From: an uncultured Spartobacteria bacterium
Lineage (GTDB): Bacteria; Verrucomicrobiota; Verrucomicrobiia; Chthoniobacterales; Chthoniobacteraceae
Length of the DNA: 41,230 nt
Assembly: GCA_903933715.1 (NCBI GenBank)
Contig: CAIZLD010000029.1
Coordinates: 80,696-121,925, forward strand
Reading direction: 5' to 3'
The notes under the pieces are model-generated. The model searched no databases and was not told where the DNA came from. It worked only from the letters and a program-made list of their open reading frames with translations. The translations under genes and the position numbers were made by a program. Each line of letters opens with the position of its first letter. Position 1 is the stretch's first letter. Shown here in pieces: positions 15,878-31,976 of the stretch.

Positions 15878-18800
15878 TCACGCGGCCGAGGGGATATGGA
15901 GAACGCTGACGCCCCCGGCCTGCTTTTCGATACGGATCTGGACCGGGATGCGTTCTTTGAGCAGATCGACGTGCGAAATAATGCCGACGGTCTTGTGGCT
16001 TAGCCGCAACGATTCGAGCGCCGCCACGGCCACGTCCAGCGTGGCGGCGTCGAGTGATCCAAACCCTTCGTCGATGAAAAGCGAATCGATTCGCACGTTG
16101 CGCCCGGCCAAATCGGAGAGGCCCAGCGCCAGGGCGAGGCTCGCGAGAAAGCTCTCGCCGCCCGAAAGGCTTTGCATCGGCCGGACGGCGTCGGCCTGGT
16201 GGCGGTCGACGATTTCCAGTGTCAACTCCCCGCTTTCCACGCGCCGGAGGCGGTAACGGTCGCTCAACCGGGCCAAATGACGATTGGCGTGACGCACGAG
16301 CAAATCGAGCGAGAGCCCTTGGGCGAATTGCTGAAAAACGGAGCCGTCGGCAGAACCGATCAGCCGCCGCAGACGTTCCCAGACGGCAACCTCTGCGCTA
16401 TCCTTTTCCCATTGCGCGAGTTCATCGGCCAGCGAACGGCGGCTCTGCTCGTCTCGGGCGAGATCGCTGCCCAGAAGCGCGCGCCGCTCGGTGGCGTTGG
16501 CGCTCCCCTCCTCCAAAGTTTTGAGCCGGGCCTCAAAGCCCGCCAACGCCTCGCCTTCGGGCGCTTGGCGCTCCCGTAAACCGCGAATTTGTTCCCGGAC
16601 ATGGCCGAGTTGACCCGCCAGCGCTTGAGCCCGGGTTGAGAGTTCATCTTTCAACGCAACGATCTGGGCGGCTTCGGCCTCGTCCAGTCTGGCGGAACGG
16701 AGGTTCGCGACAGTTGCAAACGCAGAGCCTTTCATTTGCTTTTCCAACTCGACGGATTGAGTCGTCGCCGCTTTTTGGAGCCCGGCGAGATTTTGGCGGG
16801 ACGCTTCAGCTTTCGCTTCCGCCTGAACCACGGCAGCCCGGAGCGGTTCGAGGCCCGCGCGAACGGTATCGAGGGTGGTCCATTGCGCCTGAAACCGGGC
16901 CGTGAGATCCGGATCGGCGTTGGTGGAATAAAGCTCCACGGATGGCGGGGGCAGTTGCGCCTGCCGACAAAGTTCTTCGTGATCCCGTTTTAAATTTTCG
17001 AGCCGCATCGCAAGTTGAGCCCGCTCATGTTCCAGGCGGGTGCGAGCCGCCGTTTGCTGGGCGAATTGCTGGCGGCGCTCCTCCAGTTGACGCCGAAGCG
17101 CCATTTCAGCTCCCGGCTCTGGTAAAACGCCGCCAAACGCGGCCAGCGCGGTTTGCAATTTGACGGCCTGCGCATCCGATCCGGGGCATTCGAGTTGCGC
17201 GGCAACGGCGGCGATTCGACTCTCCAAATCGGCAATGGTTTTCTGTTCCGCGGCCCGCTTTTCGTCCACGGTGGCCAGCCGCTTTTCCTGCGCGAGCAAC
17301 GCTTTTTCGGCCGCGTGCAGGCGTTCCCCGGCTTGCCGATAGGCCTGGAGCCATTCCTGATGGGCGGCAATCGCTTTCTCCAGTTCGGAAAAAACTTCGT
17401 CGATCGCTTCCGGGGTGAACAGACGCACGGAGCGGGCAAGCTGCTCGAAGGCTTCATGCCCCGCCGTTTGCTGCTGCCGCAGTTCGCCCCGCCGCCGTTG
17501 CAGTCCGACGAGCCGTTCTTCGGCCCGCGTCAATGCCTGTGCCGCCAGAATCGCTTCCTTGTCGGCGCTTTCACTGGCGGTTTTGGCCGCTTTCAGATTG
17601 CGATGGGCCTCTTCGATCGAAGCGGAAAAATGAGGCTGGGCATAGGGGTGTTCCAGAGCGCCGCACAACGGGCAAGGCTGCCCTTCTTCAAGCCGGGCCC
17701 GCTGATCGGCCATGCCCGCCATGCGCTCCTGGAGCTCGACTTCAACCCGGGCCGATTCCAACAGGGCACGTTGGGTTTCGGCTTCCTGCCCGGCGGCGAT
17801 TTTTTCCTGCCGCGCGGTTTCGATCTCCTCGACAAAATGGGCTTCCTCGTCGGCCAGCTTTGCGGCTTCGGCGGCGGCGGCATCTCGTTTTTCCAAAGCG
17901 GTGCGGAGGCGAACCAGAGCGTCCCGTTTGGGACCGAGCTTTGAAAATTCCTCGTCAATAGCCTCACGGCTCCGCCCTTGAAGCAGTTTCGCAACGGCTG
18001 CCGCTGCGATTTGAACTTCCGAATCCGCAGCCTTTCGGCCCGCCTCGGCCTGCCTTTGCTCTTCCTGCAAGGCTGCAAAACGGCGGCAGCTTTCCTCGCG
18101 CTGAGCGGTGAGTCGGGCCCGTTCTTTTTGAAGCGCGGCTGCCTGGCGGCGGCTTTCAGCGAGTTGGTTGATCCGGTCGGCGAGTTCGGCAAAAGCGGCG
18201 TCCAGCTTCGCATCTTGCGCGTGGGCTTCCAGCCAGAGCCCGGTTTCTTTCCAGGCTTTCTCAACCCCCGTTTTCTGCGATTGTGCGGCTTCGATCTCGC
18301 GACGGGCGGCTTCGATGAGCTTTGAGGTCACCGCCCCGGCCGCCTTTAACCCCGAAGCCAGCCGGACACGGGATTGCGCGACGCTGGCCCGCGCCTCGTC
18401 GTAACGCGACGACTCGATGGCCACCTGCGCTTCCATCGCGTCCAAAATTTGAAGCAACCCGAGGAACGGCTGCGCGCTCTGGTGGGTTTGAAGCCGTTCC
18501 AGGCGCGGGGCCGCTTGCGCGGTTTCCTGGAGCAACGCTGTTTGCCGGGCCAGAATCGCAGATTCCTCGCTGATCCGGGCAAGCAGTTGGCGGCCTTCTT
18601 CGATCCGTCCGGACGCGGTCTGGCGTTCCTGTTTTAAAGCTTCAAATTCCAGTCCAAGCCGCTCGATTTCAGCGGTGCGCGCGGCCCGTTCCTCTTCGGT
18701 AAGCAAAACGACGCGGCCCAAGGCTTCCCGGCGGGAATTGAGCTCTTCTTCGCGGCGGGTTGCTTCCCGATAGGCCAGTTCGCCCAAACGCGAGTAGATC

Positions 18801-19333
18801 ACGGTCCCGGTGAGGCTCTCCAGCAACCCGGCCCGCTCGGACGGCTTTGCCTTGAGAAACCGGGTGAACTCTCCCTGCGCGAGCAGCACCGACCGCCGAA
18901 AGCGTTCGTAATCCAGCCCGGTTAATTGCTCAATGAGCTGGTCTGCCTCATCGATTTTCGCCGCCAGCACCGTTCCGCTCCCATCCTCGGTGACGGTGCG
19001 CTTGGCGGGCTGGATTTTCCCCTCCGCTTTTCCCCGGGCGCGTCGGCGTTCCCACCGGGCCTGGTAGCGGCCGCCCGGCACTTCGAAAACGACTTCCGCC
19101 AGGCATGATCCGGTGTGGCGGCTCATCATGTTCTCCGGGTTGGGCTCGGTCTCGTACCGGGCGGCCCGGCCATAGAGCGCCAGGGTGATGGCATCCAGGA
19201 GCGTCGATTTCCCCGCGCCGGTCGGCCCGGTGATCGCAAAAATCCCGGCGCTTGCCAGCGGCCCATGCTCCAGGTCGATATCGCCGGAAGGGAGCGAGTT
19301 TAGGTTTTCAAATTTGATCCGAAGAATTCGCAT
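15878..19333 (-). CDS. sbcC: Exonuclease subunit SbcC (Rad50-like)
   Basis: 1151 residues from ATG 19333 (MRILRIKFENLNSLPSGDID), the typical SMC/Rad50 opening; the longer frame from 19390 adds residues unlike the family. Walker A GPTGAGKSTLLDAI begins near residue 36. Long coiled coils surround a zinc hook CPLCGALEHPY around residue 553. ABC signature SLSGGESFLASLALALGLS and Walker B SLFIDEGFGSLD lie in the C-terminal lobe. With SbcD it opens DNA ends and cleaves hairpins and cruciforms. That is notable in a genome segment with several large palindromic repeats. Confidence 0.96.
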   Translation of the reverse strand: MRILRIKFENLNSLPSGDIDLEHGPLASAGIFAITGPTGAGKSTLLDAITLALYGRAARYETEPNPENMMSRHTGSCLAEVVFEVPGGRYQARWERRRARGKAEGKIQPAKRTVTEDGSGTVLAAKIDEADQLIEQLTGLDYERFRRSVLLAQGEFTRFLKAKPSERAGLLESLTGTVIYSRLGELAYREATRREEELNSRREALGRVVLLTEEERAARTAEIERLGLEFEALKQERQTASGRIEEGRQLLARISEESAILARQTALLQETAQAAPRLERLQTHQSAQPFLGLLQILDAMEAQVAIESSRYDEARASVAQSRVRLASGLKAAGAVTSKLIEAARREIEAAQSQKTGVEKAWKETGLWLEAHAQDAKLDAAFAELADRINQLAESRRQAAALQKERARLTAQREESCRRFAALQEEQRQAEAGRKAADSEVQIAAAAVAKLLQGRSREAIDEEFSKLGPKRDALVRLRTALEKRDAAAAEAAKLADEEAHFVEEIETARQEKIAAGQEAETQRALLESARVEVELQERMAGMADQRARLEEGQPCPLCGALEHPYAQPHFSASIEEAHRNLKAAKTASESADKEAILAAQALTRAEERLVGLQRRRGELRQQQTAGHEAFEQLARSVRLFTPEAIDEVFSELEKAIAAHQEWLQAYRQAGERLHAAEKALLAQEKRLATVDEKRAAEQKTIADLESRIAAVAAQLECPGSDAQAVKLQTALAAFGGVLPEPGAEMALRRQLEERRQQFAQQTAARTRLEHERAQLAMRLENLKRDHEELCRQAQLPPPSVELYSTNADPDLTARFQAQWTTLDTVRAGLEPLRAAVVQAEAKAEASRQNLAGLQKAATTQSVELEKQMKGSAFATVANLRSARLDEAEAAQIVALKDELSTRAQALAGQLGHVREQIRGLRERQAPEGEALAGFEARLKTLEEGSANATERRALLGSDLARDEQSRRSLADELAQWEKDSAEVAVWERLRRLIGSADGSVFQQFAQGLSLDLLVRHANRHLARLSDRYRLRRVESGELTLEIVDRHQADAVRPMQSLSGGESFLASLALALGLSDLAGRNVRIDSLFIDEGFGSLDAATLDVAVAALESLRLSHKTVGIISHVDLLKERIPVQIRIEKQAGGVSVLHIPSAA

Positions 19334-19420
19334 CCAAGGGGAAGTATGGCGGCAAGTCGGAAATTTCGATCCGGAACGGAGGAAACACAAGCCCCAAAAA
19401 AGCCGGGTTTCTGAATTGCT

Positions 19421-20713
19421 CTACAATGGCCCTTCCTCGAAATAGCGATCGCAAAGCCGGGCAAATGCCGTTTCAAGCTCCGCGCGATCTTCCGGTTGCA
19501 GGTTGGGTTCCCGATCGAGCCGCCTTAAAAAAACGGCTTTCGGGTCGGCCAAAAGGTTTTCAGCCTCTTCCCGGGCTGACGCATCGTCGAGTTCCAAAGC
19601 TGCTTTTTCGCCCGTCCGCAGCGCGGTGACTTTGACGACCTGGAACGGGCGGCCAGCCACCGCTTTTTGAACGGCCTCATACACGTCGATGGTCCCGGTG
19701 GTTTCTTCGACGATGACCTCCACCCATGGCGGAAGTTCCGAAGCGGGCGGTTCAAACTGGCGCAAGCCGGGTTCCAAATCGGCTTCAGGCAACCGCAGTT
19801 GAACCAACCGGCGAAAGGACGGGATCGGGACCGGCAGGTTGGTTGCGAGTTGGCCGTCTTTGAAATCCAAGAGACGCAGTTCTTTGAGATCCCCGGCCTC
19901 CCCAAAGCTCAACGCAATCGGCGACCCGGAATAACGGATTTGCTCGCATCCCCCCACGGCTTGAGGCCGGTGAAGGTGCCCCAGCGCAACATAGGCAAAC
20001 GCCTTGGGAAAAGCGTCCGCGCCGATTTTTCCCAAGCCGCCAACATGGATCAGCCGCTCATCGGCCGTCGTGAATGCCCCGAGAGCCGTCAGATGGCCCA
20101 TGGCCAAAACCGGCACGCCCCGCTCGATCCACGGGCGGGCCGCCTCGGCGACCTCCGCATAGCGGCTCCGCAAACCGTCCCGCAAATCGGCCTCAATCTC
20201 GGAGGCCTCCTGCCCCATCCGTCCGGTTCGCAAATCGCGCTCCCGTAAAAACGGGACGGCGGCAACGACCAGTTGGGGAGCCTCCGGCGTCGGGAGCGGA
20301 ATGAGCATCTCCGAACGGGCTTCCGACAAAACCGCGACAATATGGGTTCTCAAGACGCTCAGCAAATCGCGGGGGGATTCCAGGTGCGAGGGAGAATCAT
20401 GGTTGCCCGCCGTGACCACCGCCACGCACCCCGTTCGCGAGTAGAGCGCGGCGAGAAAATCAAAGTAAAGGCGCACGGCGGATTGCGGGGGCGTGGCGCA
20501 ATCAAAAATATCCCCGGCGATAACGAGGGCATCTGTTCCGGTGGCCGTCACCGTTTCGAGCAGGAAATCGAGGAACCGGCGGGTCTCCTCCATCCGGTCG
20601 AGTTCCCCCAGCGATTTGCCCAAATGCCAATCTGAAGTATGGAGGAGGCGGAAAGCGCCTTGGGGTTTGGGAAAAGCTCCCGGGAGCAAATGGGTTATCA
20701 GGGGGGAAATCAT
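19421..20713 (-). CDS. sbcD: Exonuclease subunit SbcD (Mre11-like nuclease)
   Basis: About 430 residues from ATG 20713; an in-frame ATG at 20737 is possible and neither has a clear ribosome site. The calcineurin-type phosphoesterase motifs appear in order: LLHTSDWHLGKSLGE, LVIAGDIFDCATPPQSA, VTAGNHDSPSHL, VLAMGHLTALG and YVALGHLHRPQAVG. They bind two Mn ions. The N terminus carries a ~20-residue extension before HTSDWH compared with the usual form. It is encoded upstream of sbcC with an 87-base gap, the usual gene order. Confidence 0.95.
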   Translation of the reverse strand: MISPLITHLLPGAFPKPQGAFRLLHTSDWHLGKSLGELDRMEETRRFLDFLLETVTATGTDALVIAGDIFDCATPPQSAVRLYFDFLAALYSRTGCVAVVTAGNHDSPSHLESPRDLLSVLRTHIVAVLSEARSEMLIPLPTPEAPQLVVAAVPFLRERDLRTGRMGQEASEIEADLRDGLRSRYAEVAEAARPWIERGVPVLAMGHLTALGAFTTADERLIHVGGLGKIGADAFPKAFAYVALGHLHRPQAVGGCEQIRYSGSPIALSFGEAGDLKELRLLDFKDGQLATNLPVPIPSFRRLVQLRLPEADLEPGLRQFEPPASELPPWVEVIVEETTGTIDVYEAVQKAVAGRPFQVVKVTALRTGEKAALELDDASAREEAENLLADPKAVFLRRLDREPNLQPEDRAELETAFARLCDRYFEEGPL

Positions 20714-20767
20714 GGATGAGGGTCGAACCTTATCCATTAACAGCGCAAATGCCAGCGCGGACCCAGG

Positions 20768-20953
20768 CTAGCAGCTTTGAGAATCGCCTTTTTCGCCGTC
20801 AAGGCAAGGGAGTGCGCTTTTTTCCGCATCGGCCGCGATCAAATCGGCAACATAGTTGGAAAAATTGCGCCGCCGTCTCTTGGCGAGACGCCGTCCCTCT
20901 TTTAATAATGTTTCTGGTAAGGAAATCGAAGTCCGTCTAGTTGAAACGCCCAT
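20768..20953 (-). CDS. Orphan ribbon-helix-helix DNA-binding protein (CopG/ParD type)
   Basis: 61 residues: TRRTSISLPETLLKEGRRLA (beta strand and helix 1), then RRRNFSNYVADLIAAD (turn and helix 2), the classic ribbon-helix-helix order. The C-terminal 20 residues are acidic/cysteine-ended. No toxin gene adjoins it; sbcD lies directly downstream on the same strand. A divergent ribbon-helix-helix gene sits across a 225-base AT-rich spacer. It could be an orphan antitoxin or a small local regulator. Confidence 0.7.
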   Translation of the reverse strand: MGVSTRRTSISLPETLLKEGRRLAKRRRRNFSNYVADLIAADAEKSALPCLDGEKGDSQSC

Positions 20954-21178
20954 AAATACGATATTCCGTAATACCCAATTTATGGGATTTGCGCAAGCGT
21001 TTCCAAAAAAAAGGCCTAATTTTTTTCACTGGACGACTGTCTCACTTCGTAATATTGTATTCTGTAATTGCACGTTTCATTGAGAAACGAACCTGATAAA
21101 TCCATTAAAAAAGCATTTTCCTACATCCAAAAGGAGAACTGCCACGTTTATTGAGCAAAATCTAACGAGGAACTTCCT
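20954..21178. promoter_or_regulatory. AT-rich divergent control region between two ribbon-helix-helix genes
   Basis: This spacer is strikingly AT-rich compared with its surroundings. It holds two related AT motifs, ATATTCCGTAATAC near 20961 and GTATTCTGTAATTG near 21057, about 96 bases apart. It also has a small perfect hairpin CGTTTC-ATTGA-GAAACG (21072-21088) and two purine-rich ribosome-site-like stretches (AAGGAG near 21130, CGAGGAA near 21166). The repeated motif is a candidate operator for one or both flanking regulators. Confidence 0.4.
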
Positions 21179-21400
21179 ATCAAACGCACCAGCATCACAT
21201 TAGAAGACCCTGTTTATGAAACGGGTCAGCAAATCGCAGCGAAACGCGGCTTCGGACAATCGTTTTCGGCCTATATCGCTTGGTTGATCCAGCGCGATGC
21301 CGAAGGTGGCGTCACCCGTGAAGATGCTTCTCTCCCCAGCCCCGGTAAAACACCCGGCAAGGGGGCAAAGAAAGGCGTCAAGCGTGCGACCCGTCGGTAG
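21179..21400 (+). CDS. Second ribbon-helix-helix protein; reading frame lacks a canonical start (ATC)
   Basis: The frame IKRTSITLEDPVYETGQQIA, then AAKRGFGQSFSAYIAWLIQRD, is a clear ribbon-helix-helix domain with a basic Gly/Lys-rich tail ending KRATRR and TAG. No ATG, GTG or TTG precedes the fold: the frame is closed upstream by TGA at 21152. The only well-placed start is ATC at 21179-21181, seven bases after GAGGA, in the position an ATG would hold. So either it starts at AUC (rare, weak), or the ATG was lost and the gene is decaying, or the base is an assembly error. A hairpin terminator follows about 90 bases downstream. Confidence 0.6.
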   Translation: MKRTSITLEDPVYETGQQIAAKRGFGQSFSAYIAWLIQRDAEGGVTREDASLPSPGKTPGKGAKKGVKRATRR

Positions 21401-21489
21401 CCCGAAATCCAACACCAGAGGCCGCGACATGGTTTTGTCTCATGCGGCTGGTTTGGATACCCCCCTGATTTCGAGTTGAGCCATTGCAC

Positions 21490-21518
21490 TCCCCTTTTTC
21501 AAAGGGGATTGCTTTTTT
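21490..21518 (+). terminator. Rho-independent terminator after the second ribbon-helix-helix gene
   Basis: TCCCCTTT-TTC-AAAGGGGA, an 8-bp perfect stem with a three-base loop at 21490-21508, followed by TTGCTTTTTT. It suggests the plus-strand ribbon-helix-helix gene is, or was, transcribed as its own unit and keeps that transcript from running into mbfA. Confidence 0.75.
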
Positions 21519-21594
21519 GCGATACGGATGAGGCCAGTCAAAAACGACCTGGCGTAATTTAACATTTCAAGGTGGCGCTTGCGCTTGAACTTCG

Positions 21595-21619
21595 ACATAA
21601 TCGGGTAAATTTTATCCGA
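21595..21619 (+). promoter_or_regulatory. Palindromic operator and -10-like box at the mbfA start
   Basis: TCGGGTAAATTTTATCCGA at 21601-21619 is a 19-base palindrome (9-base arms, one mismatch) ending two bases before the mbfA ATG. A CATAAT box at 21595-21600 lies directly before it, so a repressor bound here would cover the transcription start and ribosome site. A metal- or iron-responsive repressor is the likely ligand because mbfA homologues are iron-regulated. The palindrome does not clearly match the Fur, DtxR or Irr consensus. Confidence 0.55.
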
Positions 21620-21621
21620 CT

Positions 21622-22581
21622 ATGGCTAAGAACTTTAAAGAGCTTTCAGAACCTGAAATCCTGGCATTGGCCATTTCCCTCGAGGAAACCGATGGCCGTA
21701 TTTACAGCGATTTTGCGGAAGGGTTAAAAGCCGATTTTCCCGCTACCTCCTGCATTTTCAAAAAGATGGAGGCCGAGGAAGGCCAGCACCGCCGGTTCCT
21801 CATTGACGAATTCCGCCGTCGCTTTGGAGATCACATTCCGTTGATCCGGCGCGAAGATGTGCGCGGATTCGTCACCCACAAACCAGTCTGGCTGGTGCGC
21901 CCGTTGGGGATCAGCACGGTTCGCAAGCAGGCGGAAATCATGGAGACGGAGACCCGGCGTTTTTACGAGCGCGCCATGCAAACGGTCACGGACGCCTCCA
22001 CCCGGAAGCTCTTGGGAGACTTGGCCGAAGCCGAGCGCGGCCACGAAGTTCTGGCCGGAAGCATCGAGGAGGAACATCTCACTCCCGATGTCAAAGCCGA
22101 GGAAGAACGCGCCAACCGCCGCTTGTTTGTGCTCCAGATTGTGCAACCCGGTTTGGCTGGCCTGATGGATGGCTCGGTTTCCACGCTGGCCCCGGTTTTT
22201 GCCGCCGCGTTCGCCACACAAAACACCCACGATGCGTTCCTCGTCGGCATGGCAGCCAGTGTCGGCGCGGGCATTTCGATGGGGTTCGCCGAAGCGCTTT
22301 CCGACGATGGAAGCATGACCGGGCGGGGCAAACCGTACTTGCGCGGATTTATCTGCGGTTTAATGACGATAGCCGGGGGGATCGGCCATACCGTCCCGTA
22401 TCTGATCTCCGATTTCCATTTTGCCACGGTCGTCGCTGTCGCGGTCGTGATCATTGAATTGCTGGCCATCAGCTTCATTCGCAAGCGTTACATGGACACC
22501 CCGTTCCTAGCGGCCGCGTTCCAGGTGATTGTGGGTGGCATTCTGGTGTTCGCCGCCGGGATCCTGATCGGCAGCGCCTAG
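21622..22581 (+). CDS. mbfA: Membrane-bound ferritin / VIT1-domain iron exporter
   Basis: 319 residues in two parts. The N-terminal ~155 residues form a ferritin-like (erythrin) four-helix domain with di-iron ligand patterns [43 protein letters not shown] and [10 protein letters not shown]. The C-terminal ~160 residues form a VIT1/CCC1-type membrane domain ([43 protein letters not shown], then several hydrophobic helices). In the MbfA family the ferritin domain senses or binds Fe2+ and the membrane domain exports it, protecting against iron and peroxide stress. A palindromic operator sits at the start. It is followed by repeat element A1. Confidence 0.92.
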
Positions 22582-22862: not shown

Positions 22863-25800
22863 TTATAGAATGACGCGAACGGTGTGAGGCTGACGGTCGT
22901 CGGTTAAGGAAATCACGGGAACCGGCGTGCCGTCGAGTTCCAACCGGGTGACGCCGTGCCCGGTCTGGCGCGGGTTTTCAATCACGATCTCGTATTCCGT
23001 GGCCCGGTAGCGATAGCGCAACCGCACCTCCGGCCAGCTTTTGGGCAGCGCGGGGTCAAAAGAGAGTTGTTTCCCATTCATGAGGCGGAATCCGAACACG
23101 GCTTCCAGCCAGACGCGGTAAATCCATCCGGATGCGCCGGTGTACCAGGTCCATCCTCCCCGCCCTTTACGGCCTTCGAGTGTGTAAATATCAGCGGCGA
23201 CGGCGTACGGTTCCGTTTTATAACGTTGCACCCATCCGGCATCGCGGGCGTGCTCGGCGGGACTGAGCATTTGGAGCAATTGGACGGCCCGATCCCCGTC
23301 CCCACGCCGGGCAAAAGCGAGCGCCACCCAGACGGCGGCATGCGTGTATTGCCCTCCGTTTTCGCGAACCCCCGGCGGATAGGCCTGGATGTACCCGACG
23401 TCCCGTTGGGAATACTCAAATGGCGGCGTAAAAAGCAGGACCATCTTCTCCTCTTCGCAAACCAACTGTTCGTTGACAGCCTGGAGCGCCTGCGCGACGC
23501 GTTCGCTGTTGGCGACCCCGGCAATGGCGGCCCACGACTGAGGCAGGGAGTCGATGCGCGCCTCCTCGTTTTCGCTGGACCCCAGCGGGACGCCGTTGTC
23601 GTCATACGCCCGCCGATACCAGGCGCCGTCCCAGGCTTCGTCCTCGATCGATTTCGTCACCTTTTGCGCCAACACGCGGCATCCCCTGGCTTCAGCCGTT
23701 TCCCCTTGCGTCTCCAGCAAATCGGAAAAATCGTGGAGCACGCAAATCAGGAACCACGCCAGCCAGACGCTTTCTCCTTTGCCGTGGACGCCGACCCGGT
23801 TCATGCCATCGTTCCAGTCCCCGCTGCCCATCAGCGGCAACCCGTGGTCCCCCATCGTAATCGCGCGCGCAATGGCCCGGCGGCAATGTTCGAGCAATGT
23901 TCCGCTTTCGGACGAAACTTGCGGGACCGAGAAGCTCTCAACTTCCCCCTCTTCCAAAAGCTTGCCTTCGATGAATGGGATGGTTTCGTTCAGAATCGAC
24001 GCATCCCCGGTGATCCGCAGGTAATGAGCCGTGGCGAAAGGCAGCCACAGGAGATCGTCGGTCATGCGGGTGCGCACGCCGCCGCCGGATGGCGGGTGCC
24101 ACCAATGTTGGACGTCTCCCTCCACAAATTGCCGCGAGGCGGAACGCACAATTTGTTCCCGGGTGATTTGAGGCGCGGCAACCGCCAGCGACATCACATC
24201 CTGGAGTTGATCGCGGAAGCCGAACGCGCCGCCGGATTGGTAAAACGCGGAACGCCCCCAGATCCGGCAGCTCAAGGTTTGATAAAGCAGCCAACGGTTG
24301 AAAAGCCAGTTCGCGGAATTTTCCGGAGTCTGGATTTGAACGGTCTCCAGCAAATCATCCCACCAACGGCGCGTCTCCTGGAGAGCCTGGTCCACGTTGG
24401 CCGGATCGCGGAATCTCTCGATGAGCGCTTGCGCCTGCGCTCTCCCGACCGTTTGGCCCAAAATAAACGTGACCTCGGTTTCCTGTCCCGGCGGCAGTTC
24501 AACCGTTGTTTGAACCGCCGCGCAGGGATCAAGCCCGGCCCGTGCCACTCCCGAAAGGCGTATCCCTTCCATTGCCAGCGGGGAACTTAAGGAACGGTTT
24601 CGCCCGATAAACGCGCTCCGGTCGCCGGTGAAGGAAGTCGGCGCGGGGCTCGAGGTAAGAAAGGTGGTGCCATCCCGGAAGTCGGTATGAAAGACATTGC
24701 GGGCAAAGAGACTGGCGGTTTTAAGATCCCACTTGGTCGCGATGTGAAGCTGCGTCTCTTCGCGGTCGCCTCCCAATACCAGAGTTGCGTAAGAGGTAAC
24801 CGAAAGCAGCCGCCGACGCGACGAAACATTGCGGAGCCGCAAGCGCTGGATGCGAACCGGGTATCCCCCTTTCGCGTTCATCGGCACAAACACCGTTAAC
24901 TCCTGCTCGATGGCGTGGCTGTTGTGCTCGAAGATGGAATACCCTTGGCCGTGTCGGCAACGGTAAGGGTCCAGTTCGCGGATCGGCAGCGGCGTGGGCG
25001 ACCAGAAAACACCGATCTCCTCGTCGCGCAAATAGATGACCGAGTCTGCCGGGTCGGCGACCGGATCGTTGGACCACGGCGTCAATCGGCCGCTTTGGCT
25101 GTTGCCGACCCAGCTAAAGCCGGAGCCGGATTCCGAGATCATCGTGCCGAAGCCCGGGTTGGCCATGATGTTGACCCACGGCAACGGCGTTTGCATTTGC
25201 GAGCCAAGATAGATGGCGTATTCCCTGCCGTCCTGGGTGAACCCGCCCAAGCCGTTGAAATATTGCAATTCCATGAACGGAAGCGGCGTGGACGGCTCCT
25301 CCTCCATTCCGTGAACCGGGATGAGCGTGGGCGGAATCGGATTGACCGGCACCGCGAGAGCCAACTGCTGACGCAACGAGCCGCGCGCAGCCACCAACAC
25401 CGCCCGGGCGGAAGCCAGGATGGCCGTCAATTCCTCGGGCGGCATTTTGCGGGCCGAGCGAAGATATATCCCGCCCGGCACATCGAGCCCGGTGATCTGC
25501 GCGTAAGCTTCGACAATGCGGCGTAGATAGTCGGCGAGCGGTTCCTCATAACCTTCCGCCTCTTCGCTAAAAATAAGAAGGTCCACGCGCAGCCCCCGTA
25601 AATGCCAGAAGGTATGGGCGGTGAGCGCTTGCCGGACCAACTCGACATCGCCACGGTCCCCAATGGTCACGGCGACAATCGGCAGATCCCCCGAGATCCC
25701 CTGCCCCCAAAGCGCGCGTTGTCCGTCAACACCGCGCCCCAGCCGCGCATACGGCGGACGGAGCTGAGTTTGCGGATAAAGCACATGCGCGGCCAACTGC

Positions 25801-28800
25801 TGAAAGAGTTGGGCGTCGCCCGGATGAATGTGCAAACGCCGCATCTCCAATTGCGCATGGGTCCAGGCGGTATCAAAAACGCGGGCGGCAGCGCGGAACT
25901 CCGAATAACGCTGTACCAGGGCCAGCAGCGCCTCCCGGGATTCGGCCGCCAGCGTGATAAGTGAGAATTGCACCCGCTCGTTGCGGGCGATGGTGACTCG
26001 GCGGCGAAGGCTCAAAATGGGGTCGAGCACATAACCGGTCGTTTGGGAGAGATCCCGTTCGAGAGCCTGCGGATTCCCGGTCGTGCGCCCCCGGCCCAGA
26101 AATAACGCGCGGTCAGTTTCAAACTGCGGCGCCTCGGAAAAACGCGACTGCCCCACCATCAAATGCGCGATCCAGACCGGCTGATCTTCCGTGGAGCGAG
26201 GCCGCCGCCGTGCAATCAAAGCCTCATACTCCGGCACCCATTGCGTCTCGATGAACAGCTTGCTAAAGACCGGATGCCCCCGGTCGGCGTTGTGCGGGGC
26301 GAGCGCGAGCTCGGCGTAACTCGTCACCTCGATCCGGCATGATTGCCGTGAGTGATTGACCAGCGTCACGCGCCGGATCTCTGCGTCGTCCTCGGCGGAA
26401 ACCGCAATGTCCAGGAACGTATCGCACGGACCGCTCCGCCGCCGGAATTCGGCTTTTTCGGGCGTGAAAGTCCAGGCATAATGCTGCTCCTCGGAGTGAA
26501 TCGGCTGATGGGTGGCGCTCCAGACAAATCCGGTTCCGAGATCCTTGAAATAGCAAGCCGCCCCGGCAAGATCCCTGGTCGTATCGGCGCGCCAGCGGGT
26601 CAGATCGAGCCCGCGCCAGCGGGAGCAACCCCCGCCCGCATGGGTGACCATCACCGAATAATTTCCATTGGATAGCAGTTGAACCTTGGGCGTCAAAGTA
26701 TCCGGTTTGTGGGAGTGTTCAGCCGCGATTCCGGTGATCGGAACGGCATGAGGGCGAGGCCGTTCCTCACGCACTTCACCCACGCTAGGGGAGACGCTTT
26801 GCGGAACGTGCTCGTGAAGCAGCGCTTCGGTGGCGCGAATACGGGGATCGGCGTGAAAACGCCGTTGCATCGAGCCGTCGTGCAACACGTTTCCAAAAGC
26901 CAGGAACGACATTCCCTGGTGGTGCACCATGAAGCAATGGACAACGATGCCCGGTTCGCTGCGGGGCGTGCGTTGGCGGGAATAATCGATCGCCTCATAA
27001 AACCCGTAATGGCCCATGAGACCCCCGCTTTCCAATGCGCTCAGGCGGCGAAGATTGCCCATCGCCTCCGCCGGAGCGACCAGTAAAGCGAGCGCCGAAG
27101 CATACGGCGCAATGACGAGATCGCGATCCAGACCCCGCTTTAATCCCAAGGCCGGAACTCCGAAAGCCCGGTATTGGTAAATGTGGTGGCGATCAAGCGC
27201 ACTGAACGCCGATTCGGAAATCCCCCACGGCACCCCGCGCTTTTTGCCATAAGCCGCCTGGCATATCACCGCATCGCGGCACGCGCCGCCCAGTAATGAG
27301 TTATCGCAAATCCGCGTCAGCAATATCGGCATCAAATATTCAAACATCGTCCCGGTCCACGAGAGCAGCGGCCGCCGCCCGTTTGCTGCTCCGAAGGGGC
27401 GCCCGAGCGCCCACCAGTGTTCGACCGGCACATCTCCCCGCGCAATCGAGACGAGACTGGCCAGGCGCGATTCGCTGGCGAGCAAATCGTAAAACGAGTT
27501 GTCCAAACAACGCTCGCCCACACGATACCCAATGGCAAATAGGCGGCGCTGAGCATCATACAAAAAGCGCATGTCCATCCCGTCGGCAAGCGAGCGCAGG
27601 CGGTCTAAAATCTGTTGCGCCAGCGCCATCTGCTCCGCGGCATGTTGCCGGGCGCGTGCGAACGACTGCGCCAACTCGTCGAGCCACGCACCGACCGGCG
27701 CGGGCAGGTTCAACTCCGTCACACGAGCCTGATACGAAAGCAGGAGCGACAGGCGCGGGATATCGCCCGCCGTGAGACTGGCCAGCGAGAACGGCGCTCC
27801 CAAAGCCTTGCGCCTCCAGGCATGGGCGTCCCCATGAATCGACAAAACCTGGGCCGGTGGCTTCGCCAGCATTTCCAGCGGCAGCAAATAATCATCGATG
27901 ACCTTGTTCCAAAGGCGAACCTCTTTCTGGATTTTCTGCGCCCAATAATGGCGTGGGTCATCGGAGTCCACCGCCTCCGCCAATTCCTTGGCCGGAGAAG
28001 CCGCCGAGCGAATCCGGTAAATGATGTCCTCGGTATCCATCGGCTCCACGGAAACCAGTGTCTCCAGCGCGCTCAACGCCGATCTGACCGCCGCCGGACC
28101 GGACTCCGATTGTTGACGCACGATCGCGACCGCATCGGCGATTCCCCGCAAAGCGGAAGGCCCAAGGATCGGCTCCGAGAGCAACTCACGATAGCCTGAT
28201 TCCAGCGTCCACAGGCAGGCCAGCAAATTGCCGCTATCCACCGTCGAGACATAGCGGGGTCTTAGCGAAGAGAGGTCGCTGATATCGTACCAGTTGAGCA
28301 AGTGCCCTTCGAAACGCTCCAGTTTTTCAAGCGTCTCCAAGGTGGCCAAATGGCGGCGCAGCAACTCGTCAACACAAAGATAACCGAAATCGCGGGCTGT
28401 CAACCCGGCCAACAACCACAGGCCGATATTCGTTGGCGAGGTTCGCATAAAGACCTCTTTTTTATGGGTCTCCTGGTAGTTGTCCGGCGGAAGCCAATGC
28501 GTCTGCGGCCCCACGAAATCATCAAAGTAGCGCCACGTCAGCCGCGCCGTATGGCGCAGGAAACGGCGGTCTTCCGGCGTAAGAAGCCGCTCGTGTACGC
28601 TCGGCACGGGGAGGTCAATCAGCGGGACAAATAGTGGAGAGAACACCCAAAGCACGGCAAAAGGAGCGATCGCTCCAACGGCTCCCGCCGGCAAATAAAC
28701 CAGCGCCATTCCCAGCAGAAACAAGCTGAATACAGGAATCCACATCATTCCCAAAAGGAATTTGCGCTGGCGGCCATTGCGGCGGCGCTGGGCGTCGTGG

Positions 28801-31800
28801 GCGGTCTCCCATTCCAACAGCAACCGCCCGGACACCCGGCGACGATAGATCACCCGCAGCATGGCATCCAAAGCCAGCAAAGCCTGGTCGGGCAGAAATG
28901 CCGTCCAGACAAGAGAACGCAACACGCTGCTGAAAGCATCATAACCCGGCAATGCGCTCCGGGTCAGAAGCACCGCCAGTTGGGTCAATGCAGGCCAAAA
29001 CAGAACCACAGCGGCCACGAGGCTCCACAACCCGGGCGTGGGCGTAAACATCCAGCCTGCGACAAGCATGCCAACGGTCGCTGCCGGAACCAGGCTGCGG
29101 CGCAGGTTATCAAAGATTTTCCACCGGCTCATGGCGGAAAGCGGGTTGGGAGCCCGTCCGCCATCTTCGGTCGGAACCCGGCTTTTGAGCCAATCCATAA
29201 TCTGCCAGTCGCCGCGAATCCACCGATGTTGACGCCCGCCCCACGTGATGTAACTGCTCGGAAAAACATCCAGCAATTCGATATCGCTCGCCAGACCGAC
29301 GCGCCCGTGAACTCCCTCAATCAAATCATGACTTAAAAGGTGGGATTTCGGAAAACGCCGCGAGAGCAGCCGGTGGAAAGCCTGCAAATCGTAGATCCCT
29401 TTTCCGTGATAACACCCCTCGCCCGTCAAATCCTGGTACACGTCGGAAACCGCATGCGAATACGGGTCCAGCCCGCACGGATCGGCGAAAATGCGGGAAA
29501 ACCAGGTGGCAATCGCGCTCGGCAGCGTGGTGCTGACCCGCGGTTGGATAATGGTGTAGCCGCGTAGAATGCACCGGCCATCAGGCGAGAAACGAGGCTC
29601 GTTGAGCGGATGCGAAAGCGTTTCAATGAGCCGCCGGGCGCTATCCCGCAGGAGTTGCGTATCGGCATCCAGCGTGATGACATATCGGATGCCGTTAAGA
29701 AGATCGCGATTTCCAATGAACAGCAGGTCCGCGATTTCGGGGGCGCTCTCCCCCATCAAATAACGGTTGAGCTGCTCCAGTTTGCCACGCTTGCGTTCCC
29801 AGCCCATCCAGCATTTCTCGCTCTCGTTCCAGACGCGCTGCCGATGAAACAAAAAAAAGCGGCCGAAGCCGTGCTTTCGATTGAGCGCCTCGATTCCTTG
29901 CGTTGCGATCTCCAGGAACTCCGCATCCTCCGGCATGTGCTGGCGCGGGGCATCTGCAAAATCGCTCAATAACGCGAAGCGGATTTGCGGGTCGGAGTTG
30001 CCCAGGAACCGAATCTCCAGGCGCTCGACTTCATGGCGGATCGCGTCGGGCGTGGTCAACAGCATCGGCACCACCACGAGCGTGCGGCACTCCTTGGGAA
30101 TCCCATCTTTTTCAAAAGACATCTTCGGGAGCGTCCGCGGAGGCAGGCAACGCGTGACCCCATAGTTGACGATTTGCACCGCCAGTTCGCTGAGTGGCAA
30201 CCCAAGCAACAAGCCAAGCAAAATCAACCATCCCGGATTGGCGCCGCCTTCGGCAGCCATCGCGAGCACGCCTGCAGTCAAGCCAAGCGTCACCAGGCAA
30301 ATGGCCCCTATGTAAACCGGGGGCGCATGATTCCTCAGGCCGCGCCGAAAGCGTTCCAATCGCGGAACGCGACAGCCGAGTTGTTTTTCAAGGCCAAGCC
30401 GCCCTTCATCGACCAGATAATATCCCACATGCCCGCCGACATCATCCCGTTTCCCCAGCGCCAACTCCATGATTTTCCGGATCACCTCCAGTTCCTCGCT
30501 CCCGCTCTCTTTGGCAAGCTCCTCGACCGCGCCCCGGTATTCATTACGGGTTTCAAAGTCCATGTAGGGATAAATTTCAGCGGGATCCTGGCTCAACTCC
30601 GAGTGGGCGCGACTGACCGATTCCACCAAACCACGCCACTCGATTTGAAGAAGACGCCGGCAACTGGTGATCGCATTGGCAAGGGACGTCTGCTCAATCG
30701 CTTTGCGGTGTTCCTCTTCCTGAATAAGCTCTTGGAGCGGCGCCCCGAGCGTGCGCTCCAGCCAGTCGGAAACCATCGGTAATGCCGCTTCCTCGTTGTA
30801 CAGATGGGCGACCAGTTCGCTGGCAAAATGGAGCGTCGGCTCCGGCTGATCCCGGACCAGTTCGGCCATCATCTGCGCCAACTCCGCCGGAGCGCTGCGC
30901 AACACGGTGATCAACCGGTTGGCCCAGAAATCCGCCGTCTCGCTTTGCCGCTGCGAACGTTCCACTTGAAGAGCAAGCATCCTCAAGCACTCAATCAGCC
31001 GCAAACGGAGCATCGCGGGGAGAGCCCACAATTCGCCAATATTAAGCGGCGTCACGGTCTGGAAACCGTCGAGGAAATCGCGGATCGTGACGGCATCCAG
31101 GACCGCATCCGCCCCGGCCACCATTTCCGCCGCGACCTGATAAATCCTGGGTTCTCCCGTATAAGGCCCGGCGGCAATCGCGGGCAATTCGTTGCAATAG
31201 CGTTGCGGGAGATTGCGGCGGATGTTCTCGAATTGCGCTCGGACCAGGTAATCGTTATCAAGGAGCCATTCCGCGGAAATCCCCGCGGATTGGCGAGCTT
31301 CAGTCAGGATGGAAAGATTTCGATCGGTCCATTGCAAAATCGCCCGGCTCTCGCCCAACCTTTCCAACAAGTAAGCACAATTGTTGGCGATCCCCTTTTC
31401 TGTACGCAGAGATTGGGCCAGTTGCATCCCCGCCCGAACCATGCGTTCGCTATGGGGCGGTTCATGTCGGAGCAGCCGCGATTCCGGTTCAGAATCAAAA
31501 GCGCGACCGCGCAAAAAAACATAAGCTGCCGGAGACTCGCTCTGGTTTTCCCGCAATAGCCCCAGCACGCGCTCGCTATGTCGGGGGGGCGTTTCGATGA
31601 GGAGCACGGTCTCATTGCGCAGCACCCATTTGCCGAACCGGGCAATGACGTCATCACTCACCCGGTAATCGAGCCGATTCAAAATGAATGCGCTCAAACC
31701 GGCGGTCAAGAAAGTCAGAAAAGCCAGCCACCCCGCAGATAAAATTCCAAAAACAATCCCCAGCAACAGCCCTACGATCCCAATAAGCAGCCCGCCCCAA

Positions 31801-31976
31801 AATGCGGAAACCCCGTGAGCGTGAATCGTGATTGCGCCCTCATCCGAACAACTGAGCCCCACCGAGCGCCGGAATCCTTTGCCCCGAAGCTCCCGTAAAA
31901 CCGCCAACGCGGTCTCCGGAGTTTGAAAAAATCCCGCCACCAGTGCGCGGTCTGCCGTTCTCCGTAGGAACTTCAT
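22863..31976 (-). CDS. Cyclic beta-1,2-glucan synthase-like giant membrane enzyme (NdvB/Cgs type)
   Basis: 3037 residues, even longer than Brucella Cgs. The core follows the GT84-glycoamylase-GH94 plan. A glycosyltransferase has VITLDADTQLL near residue 768 and GGRQHRWIRGDWQI near 919, framed by membrane helices (~555-610, ~955-1000, ~1070-1125). A glycoamylase-like domain runs from SPTNIGLWLLAGLTARDFG (~1183) to YHQGMSFLAFGNVL (~1690). GH94 phosphorylase-like domains follow, with MGSGDWNDGMNRVG near 2721 (Asp general acid) and TWYTGASGWIYRVW near 2950. It should polymerise UDP-glucose into beta-1,2-glucan, set length and cyclise. Extra at the N terminus: an YflT/GSP17M-like segment (GFFQTPETALAVLRELRGKG) plus two membrane helices at ~57-98. 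The reading frame is intact throughout. Confidence 0.93.
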   Translation of the reverse strand: MKFLRRTADRALVAGFFQTPETALAVLRELRGKGFRRSVGLSCSDEGAITIHAHGVSAFWGGLLIGIVGLLLGIVFGILSAGWLAFLTFLTAGLSAFILNRLDYRVSDDVIARFGKWVLRNETVLLIETPPRHSERVLGLLRENQSESPAAYVFLRGRAFDSEPESRLLRHEPPHSERMVRAGMQLAQSLRTEKGIANNCAYLLERLGESRAILQWTDRNLSILTEARQSAGISAEWLLDNDYLVRAQFENIRRNLPQRYCNELPAIAAGPYTGEPRIYQVAAEMVAGADAVLDAVTIRDFLDGFQTVTPLNIGELWALPAMLRLRLIECLRMLALQVERSQRQSETADFWANRLITVLRSAPAELAQMMAELVRDQPEPTLHFASELVAHLYNEEAALPMVSDWLERTLGAPLQELIQEEEHRKAIEQTSLANAITSCRRLLQIEWRGLVESVSRAHSELSQDPAEIYPYMDFETRNEYRGAVEELAKESGSEELEVIRKIMELALGKRDDVGGHVGYYLVDEGRLGLEKQLGCRVPRLERFRRGLRNHAPPVYIGAICLVTLGLTAGVLAMAAEGGANPGWLILLGLLLGLPLSELAVQIVNYGVTRCLPPRTLPKMSFEKDGIPKECRTLVVVPMLLTTPDAIRHEVERLEIRFLGNSDPQIRFALLSDFADAPRQHMPEDAEFLEIATQGIEALNRKHGFGRFFLFHRQRVWNESEKCWMGWERKRGKLEQLNRYLMGESAPEIADLLFIGNRDLLNGIRYVITLDADTQLLRDSARRLIETLSHPLNEPRFSPDGRCILRGYTIIQPRVSTTLPSAIATWFSRIFADPCGLDPYSHAVSDVYQDLTGEGCYHGKGIYDLQAFHRLLSRRFPKSHLLSHDLIEGVHGRVGLASDIELLDVFPSSYITWGGRQHRWIRGDWQIMDWLKSRVPTEDGGRAPNPLSAMSRWKIFDNLRRSLVPAATVGMLVAGWMFTPTPGLWSLVAAVVLFWPALTQLAVLLTRSALPGYDAFSSVLRSLVWTAFLPDQALLALDAMLRVIYRRRVSGRLLLEWETAHDAQRRRNGRQRKFLLGMMWIPVFSLFLLGMALVYLPAGAVGAIAPFAVLWVFSPLFVPLIDLPVPSVHERLLTPEDRRFLRHTARLTWRYFDDFVGPQTHWLPPDNYQETHKKEVFMRTSPTNIGLWLLAGLTARDFGYLCVDELLRRHLATLETLEKLERFEGHLLNWYDISDLSSLRPRYVSTVDSGNLLACLWTLESGYRELLSEPILGPSALRGIADAVAIVRQQSESGPAAVRSALSALETLVSVEPMDTEDIIYRIRSAASPAKELAEAVDSDDPRHYWAQKIQKEVRLWNKVIDDYLLPLEMLAKPPAQVLSIHGDAHAWRRKALGAPFSLASLTAGDIPRLSLLLSYQARVTELNLPAPVGAWLDELAQSFARARQHAAEQMALAQQILDRLRSLADGMDMRFLYDAQRRLFAIGYRVGERCLDNSFYDLLASESRLASLVSIARGDVPVEHWWALGRPFGAANGRRPLLSWTGTMFEYLMPILLTRICDNSLLGGACRDAVICQAAYGKKRGVPWGISESAFSALDRHHIYQYRAFGVPALGLKRGLDRDLVIAPYASALALLVAPAEAMGNLRRLSALESGGLMGHYGFYEAIDYSRQRTPRSEPGIVVHCFMVHHQGMSFLAFGNVLHDGSMQRRFHADPRIRATEALLHEHVPQSVSPSVGEVREERPRPHAVPITGIAAEHSHKPDTLTPKVQLLSNGNYSVMVTHAGGGCSRWRGLDLTRWRADTTRDLAGAACYFKDLGTGFVWSATHQPIHSEEQHYAWTFTPEKAEFRRRSGPCDTFLDIAVSAEDDAEIRRVTLVNHSRQSCRIEVTSYAELALAPHNADRGHPVFSKLFIETQWVPEYEALIARRRPRSTEDQPVWIAHLMVGQSRFSEAPQFETDRALFLGRGRTTGNPQALERDLSQTTGYVLDPILSLRRRVTIARNERVQFSLITLAAESREALLALVQRYSEFRAAARVFDTAWTHAQLEMRRLHIHPGDAQLFQQLAAHVLYPQTQLRPPYARLGRGVDGQRALWGQGISGDLPIVAVTIGDRGDVELVRQALTAHTFWHLRGLRVDLLIFSEEAEGYEEPLADYLRRIVEAYAQITGLDVPGGIYLRSARKMPPEELTAILASARAVLVAARGSLRQQLALAVPVNPIPPTLIPVHGMEEEPSTPLPFMELQYFNGLGGFTQDGREYAIYLGSQMQTPLPWVNIMANPGFGTMISESGSGFSWVGNSQSGRLTPWSNDPVADPADSVIYLRDEEIGVFWSPTPLPIRELDPYRCRHGQGYSIFEHNSHAIEQELTVFVPMNAKGGYPVRIQRLRLRNVSSRRRLLSVTSYATLVLGGDREETQLHIATKWDLKTASLFARNVFHTDFRDGTTFLTSSPAPTSFTGDRSAFIGRNRSLSSPLAMEGIRLSGVARAGLDPCAAVQTTVELPPGQETEVTFILGQTVGRAQAQALIERFRDPANVDQALQETRRWWDDLLETVQIQTPENSANWLFNRWLLYQTLSCRIWGRSAFYQSGGAFGFRDQLQDVMSLAVAAPQITREQIVRSASRQFVEGDVQHWWHPPSGGGVRTRMTDDLLWLPFATAHYLRITGDASILNETIPFIEGKLLEEGEVESFSVPQVSSESGTLLEHCRRAIARAITMGDHGLPLMGSGDWNDGMNRVGVHGKGESVWLAWFLICVLHDFSDLLETQGETAEARGCRVLAQKVTKSIEDEAWDGAWYRRAYDDNGVPLGSSENEEARIDSLPQSWAAIAGVANSERVAQALQAVNEQLVCEEEKMVLLFTPPFEYSQRDVGYIQAYPPGVRENGGQYTHAAVWVALAFARRGDGDRAVQLLQMLSPAEHARDAGWVQRYKTEPYAVAADIYTLEGRKGRGGWTWYTGASGWIYRVWLEAVFGFRLMNGKQLSFDPALPKSWPEVRLRYRYRATEYEIVIENPRQTGHGVTRLELDGTPVPVISLTDDRQPHTVRVIL

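Follow-up and report, generated by a model that had tools for sequence, protein, structure and literature searches.

A small gene for a ribbon-helix-helix (RHH)-like protein most probably begins at a real AUC start codon, replaced by AUU in two related species, behind a good Shine-Dalgarno (SD) sequence and with low expression; we assign this reading a probability of roughly 0.78. It rests on comparison of the locus in five species of one genus of uncultured Verrucomicrobia-type bacteria. ATC or ATT in the start position would imply low-level expression, and the comparison points to a deliberate translational brake, as opposed to gene decay or an error in the sequence. The gene lies in a window of 41,230 nucleotides, which is the whole stretch of DNA analysed, and has the following surroundings.

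15878–19390, minus strand: sbcC, after sbcD in the window
19421–20737, minus strand: sbcD, downstream of the RHH-like paralogue
20768–20953, minus strand: divergent RHH-like paralogue of 61 amino acids with an ATG start
21027–21055, plus strand: conserved block CACTGGACGACTGTCTCACTTCGTAATAT, a likely promoter/operator with TAATAT as -10
21116–21132, plus strand: conserved leader block TTTTCCTACATCCAAAA, from the leader alignment
21163–21171, plus strand: SD sequence TAACGAGGA, with 7 nt between GAGGA and ATC
21168–21178, plus strand: candidate hairpin of 4 bp, AGGA-nnn-UCCU, that would cover the SD, from the consensus fold
21179–21400, plus strand: RHH-like open reading frame (ORF) of 73 amino acids, first codon ATC (21179–21181), stop codon TAG (21398–21400)
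21490–21518, plus strand: terminator-like hairpin (21490–21508) with T tail, about 90 nt after the stop codon

The gene with ATC in the start position, its product and its neighbours

The preliminary description of this DNA had noted an ATC first codon at a correct distance from the SD and the lack of any ATG, GTG or TTG between it and the preceding stop, and both statements were borne out. An in-frame TGA is located at codon -9, none of the 8 codons from there to the ATC is a canonical start, and the earliest canonical start within the ORF is a TTG at codon 36. The dedicated terminator that had been claimed to follow is plausible because of the hairpin with T tail downstream of the stop codon; a scan of positions 20700–21650 returned four terminator-like sites, two of which are this same 21490 hairpin, compared to a mean of 1.4 in shuffled sequence.

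The product is likely a DNA-binding protein, putatively of the RHH type. The ORF is as described; the fold, which had been called complete, is weakly supported, with matches of the window protein to RHH_4 (E = 0.0073) and RHH_5 (E = 0.084) that are both under the curated Pfam cut-offs. All five orthologues matched these two models at E up to 1, with best E-values of 0.005 and 0.023, respectively. The AlphaFold model has helices at residues 11–22 and 29–43 and no assigned strand, with a pLDDT of about 80 for residues 11–40, a mean of 62.6 and a pTM of 0.38. Foldseek returned a single match (E 8.9), and three more came from searching PDB sequences with a profile (E 0.21–0.61); none of them was to an RHH chain. 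The first 48 residues are near-invariant among the orthologues and precede a basic, Lys/Arg-rich tail. This C-terminal part (21326–21397) is rich in Lys, Arg, Ala and Pro and varies in length among the orthologues, being longest in genome G004; we take these tails to resemble those of the histone H1 type.

The divergent paralogue was not mentioned in the earlier item on the ATC-started gene. Its ATG, separated from the ATC by 225 bp, is positioned five codons before an RRTSIS motif in all five genomes, and its frame is open further, with more upstream starts, in G002 and G004. Relatedness to the ATC-started gene is indicated by 40% identity (E 4.1e-4; E 1.5e-5 in G001 in the family search), and the two members scanned matched RHH_5 weakly (E 0.0064 and 0.15). 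The paralogue probably belongs to the same unit as the ATC-started gene. Both RHH genes are present in all five genus genomes and sbcD was found in four; the G003 assembly has no sbcD match, though the RHH pair is kept. The pair therefore probably does more than regulate sbcCD. At about the place of sbcC, the G003 locus (L010, positions 1–1100) has an ORF on the minus strand (154–801) without a Pfam match at E 0.001. The pattern in G003 looks as if sbcDC were being lost, and the locus is at a contig end.

On the other side, positions 21622–22581 of the plus strand encode a protein in which a rubrerythrin domain is fused to one of the VIT1 family. Further along, an ORF of 3037 amino acids on the minus strand (22863–31976) contains GH94 and glucoamylase-type domains, a set that presumably resembles cyclic beta-1,2-glucan synthases.

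The conserved intergenic region

The block at 21027–21055 is, from its position and conservation, a likely promoter/operator. Its consensus, ACTGGACnAnnGTCTCACTTyGTAATAT, is shared by all five genomes and ends in TAATAT, which could plausibly serve as a -10 and lies about 124 nt upstream of the ATC; a sigma-70 consensus scan of 20700–21650 did not report the block as a promoter, and the motif GGTAATAY is absent from the window. A second conserved intergenic block surrounds TTTTCCTACATCC. Each of the five genomes contains a single perfect copy of the 17-base core of the putative promoter block. With three mismatches allowed, 15 further matches were obtained over the five genomes vs. 8 for the reversed control, and four of the 15 represent one recurrent copy that, by eye, looks like the start of coding sequence on the opposite strand in three genomes. 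A regulon built on this core was rejected on these counts.

In the consensus fold of the leader, the 4-bp hairpin over the SD is accompanied by an outer stem and by two further hairpins, one A/T-rich and one within coding sequence. Of the 29 pairs in this fold, four have a sequence changed on both sides, all within the A/T-rich hairpin. The pairs of the SD hairpin are kept in all five genomes (one as G-U) with no change on both sides, in a count that tests only the inner hairpin fairly, and single-sequence folds of the leader were inconsistent. An RNA switch around the start was rejected for want of covariation in the SD element and for the inconsistency of the single folds. A leader peptide was likewise discounted: G001 and G002 have short ATG-started leader ORFs (at -94 and -112, respectively), but by eye the two translate the conserved TTCCTACATCC block in frames that differ, and G000 has no ATG there.

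Conservation of the start triplet and competing readings

The genus sample consists of draft assemblies of five species, of which the four with named records are metagenome-assembled genomes (MAGs) and G000 is the window genome. Orthologues were recovered from all five (5 of 57 genomes in the broader comparison) and from none of the 52 other genomes compared. A search of 40 family genomes gave strong E-values in the same five alone; with matches as weak as E 1 included, 21 of the 40 gave a hit, and there was no strong match in the 35 family genomes outside the genus, where the best reached E 0.0097. In 286 genomes of the class the window's own gene was the sole match, in a search that did not report the other genus members either. 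Four of the five (G001–G004) were also recovered from a named collection, as Chthoniobacteraceae bacterium STA_34, Verrucomicrobia bacterium LacPavin MAG, Spartobacteria bacterium UBA695 and an uncultured Spartobacteria bin, and the viral contigs searched contained no relative. Ten frames from less closely related RHH genes within the order were also inspected: seven have ATG directly or at most two codons before the matched stretch, one has it nine codons before (L023) and one about eleven before (L025), and L026 has no ATG in the 20 codons shown upstream.

Alignment of the homologues, proposed earlier as a check, showed that ATC or ATT is kept in all five genus members, more than chance would be expected to give. 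The start triplet is ATC in G000, G003 and G004 and ATT in G001 and G002, and a canonical triplet is found in none of the five. In the infC tree, G001 (ATT) is the sister of G003 (ATC) and G002 (ATT) groups with G004 (ATC) with a support of 77; the tree of RHH codons is weaker (supports of 48 and 70) and differs in topology. Both trees imply at least two C/T changes at the third base (parsimony, counted by hand), and G occurs there in no genome. The triplet follows a conserved SD of consensus TAA[CG]GAGGA, with GAGGA 7 nt from the start in all five genomes and the variant TAAGGAGGA (also given as TAAGGAGG) in G001 and G003. Over codons 2–48, pS was 0.24–0.81 vs. a pN of 0.009–0.032 in the ten pairwise comparisons, which indicates strong purifying selection on the RHH-like protein. 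Deliberate low-level expression, one of the two options offered by the preliminary description, fits the constancy of ATC/ATT, the retained SD and this selection.

Under this reading, initiator tRNA would start inefficiently at AUC or AUU and initiation factor IF3 would discriminate against such a start, so that the RHH protein would stay scarce relative to its divergent, ATG-started paralogue. The likely purpose, as position and conservation suggest, would be autoregulation, with the proportion of the two RHH proteins being set at the intergenic region that they share. Output would be tied to the level of IF3, as for infC and sigR, and by analogy the protein may be both kept scarce and IF3-sensitive. 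We regard as rather doubtful the more specific proposal that the locus is an IF3 gauge in a two-gene switch, composed of divergent RHH paralogues with one operator region and with AUG and AUC/AUU starts, respectively. If it were true, a change in IF3 or in initiation fidelity would shift the paralogue ratio and flip transcription of the locus.

A less regulated version of the same explanation, and a sub-case of it that does not exclude the rest, is that the start is a relic fixed in the ancestor of the genus, with little protein needed and no sensing of IF3. We consider this possible, if not favoured. One ancestral event could account for all five genomes; the C/T changes that never arrive at G hint instead at selection against AUG, although two events are few.

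A separate question is whether the triplet is the start at all. The comparative evidence that ATH (ATC or ATT) is the start is strong, but the alternation between C and T is also synonymous for an internal isoleucine codon, as would be expected if the protein were longer and in truth began upstream, by way of a frameshift or another near-cognate codon. In three of the five genomes the frame is indeed open for 112–119 codons, and G002 carries a GTG in frame at -72. A short N-terminal extension would not be structurally absurd, since the paralogue begins four residues further upstream in the alignment (by eye). The longer protein is nevertheless unlikely. Upstream stops occur in frame at codon -9 in G000 and at codon -8 in G003, which leaves 8 and 7 codons, and among these no near-cognate codon is common to the two genomes (codon -5 is AAG in G003 and AAC in G000). 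Amino acids are invariant in codons 1–14, the residues just upstream vary, and the sole invariant codon from -5 to -1 is GAG, within the SD; the leader alignment also contains single-base gaps. Homologues with the N terminus elsewhere had been named in the earlier description as grounds for rejection; in the five genomes, protein conservation begins at the ATC/ATT codon. In 230 nt upstream and in three frames, no ORF started by ATG, GTG or TTG reads into the gene in all genomes (ORFs of at least 4 amino acids ending after -25 were listed, with no row for G003 and G004), and no other start or frame common to the genomes was found. Only G002 adds an out-of-frame ATG at -26, and its in-frame GTG, 72 nt upstream, is the one exception to a pattern of five start triplets without 3' G and without a canonical in-frame alternative.

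An antitoxin role for the RHH protein, as one half of a toxin-antitoxin pair, is very unlikely. Antitoxins commonly have RHH folds, and two of the five orthologues match VAPB_antitox weakly (best E 0.041); however, the neighbour on the conserved side is the second RHH-like protein, followed by sbcD in four genomes, and the downstream neighbour in the window is the rubrerythrin/VIT1 protein. No toxin gene is adjacent among the window neighbours (the RHH-like paralogue, sbcD and the rubrerythrin/VIT1 protein), which were the ones classified; in the other genomes the downstream side was read at the level of ORFs. Finally, a pseudogene that has lost its ATG, the second option of the preliminary description, or a base-call error can be dismissed: draft assemblies can contain errors and AUC is a very poor start codon, but all five separate assemblies show ATC or ATT, pN is much smaller than pS, and both the SD and the promoter block are conserved.

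Relation to known non-canonical starts

Canonical start codons have a 3' G in common and escape discrimination by IF3, while AUU, AUC and AUA do not, according to PMC4611024. Few bacterial start codons beyond ATG, GTG and TTG have been characterised experimentally and start prediction leans on those three, as stated in PMC5472188; the present locus is a reminder that annotation may miss small regulators. In the literature searched, we found no earlier report of an RHH gene with an AUU, AUC or AUA start and nothing that links RHH proteins with sbcCD or Verrucomicrobia with a non-canonical start codon. The type of translational control is known, and this instance of it appears to be new. The ATG-started paralogue alongside is a built-in control, and the locus would permit a clean test of whether such start codons serve to set regulator ratios.

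The start class is shared with infC, whose start is ATT in E. coli and ATC in Streptomyces (PMC5472188). In each of the five genus genomes, ATT preceded by AAGGAG occupies the start position of infC (L012–L016), and the genus therefore has the usual non-canonical infC start. The two differ in that infC controls itself via its product, IF3, whereas the RHH gene does not encode an initiation factor.

Closer in kind is Streptomyces sigR, where 32 of the 34 species have GTC and the other two GTT; the gene has an extensive SD and is repressed by IF3 (PMC5472188). Both are regulator genes with a conserved start without 3' G, a third-base C/T difference between species and an extensive SD, and both have a partner, the ratio to which matters for sigR. 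They differ in that sigR encodes a sigma factor with GTC/GTT starts and shown IF3 repression, whereas here the gene is RHH-like with ATC/ATT, the partner is a divergent paralogue and the evidence is sequence.

Low output from such starts has been recorded in B. subtilis and S. aureus. Mutation of the B. subtilis rny start to AUC made reporter expression much lower (PMC10303841). S. aureus ccpN (AUA) and cvfC1 (AUU) have extended SDs and give, in poor medium, about 10% of the reporter output obtained with AUG (PMC13009471). The ccpN genes of S. aureus and B. subtilis (AUA) and staphylococcal cvfC1 (AUU) resemble the RHH gene in combining a conserved non-canonical start, a (putative) transcription regulator and an extended SD, and the conserved SD of the RHH gene matches the extended SDs at S. 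aureus non-canonical starts (PMC13009471). Those genes belong to other protein families and another phylum, and in S. aureus initiation was mapped and measured.
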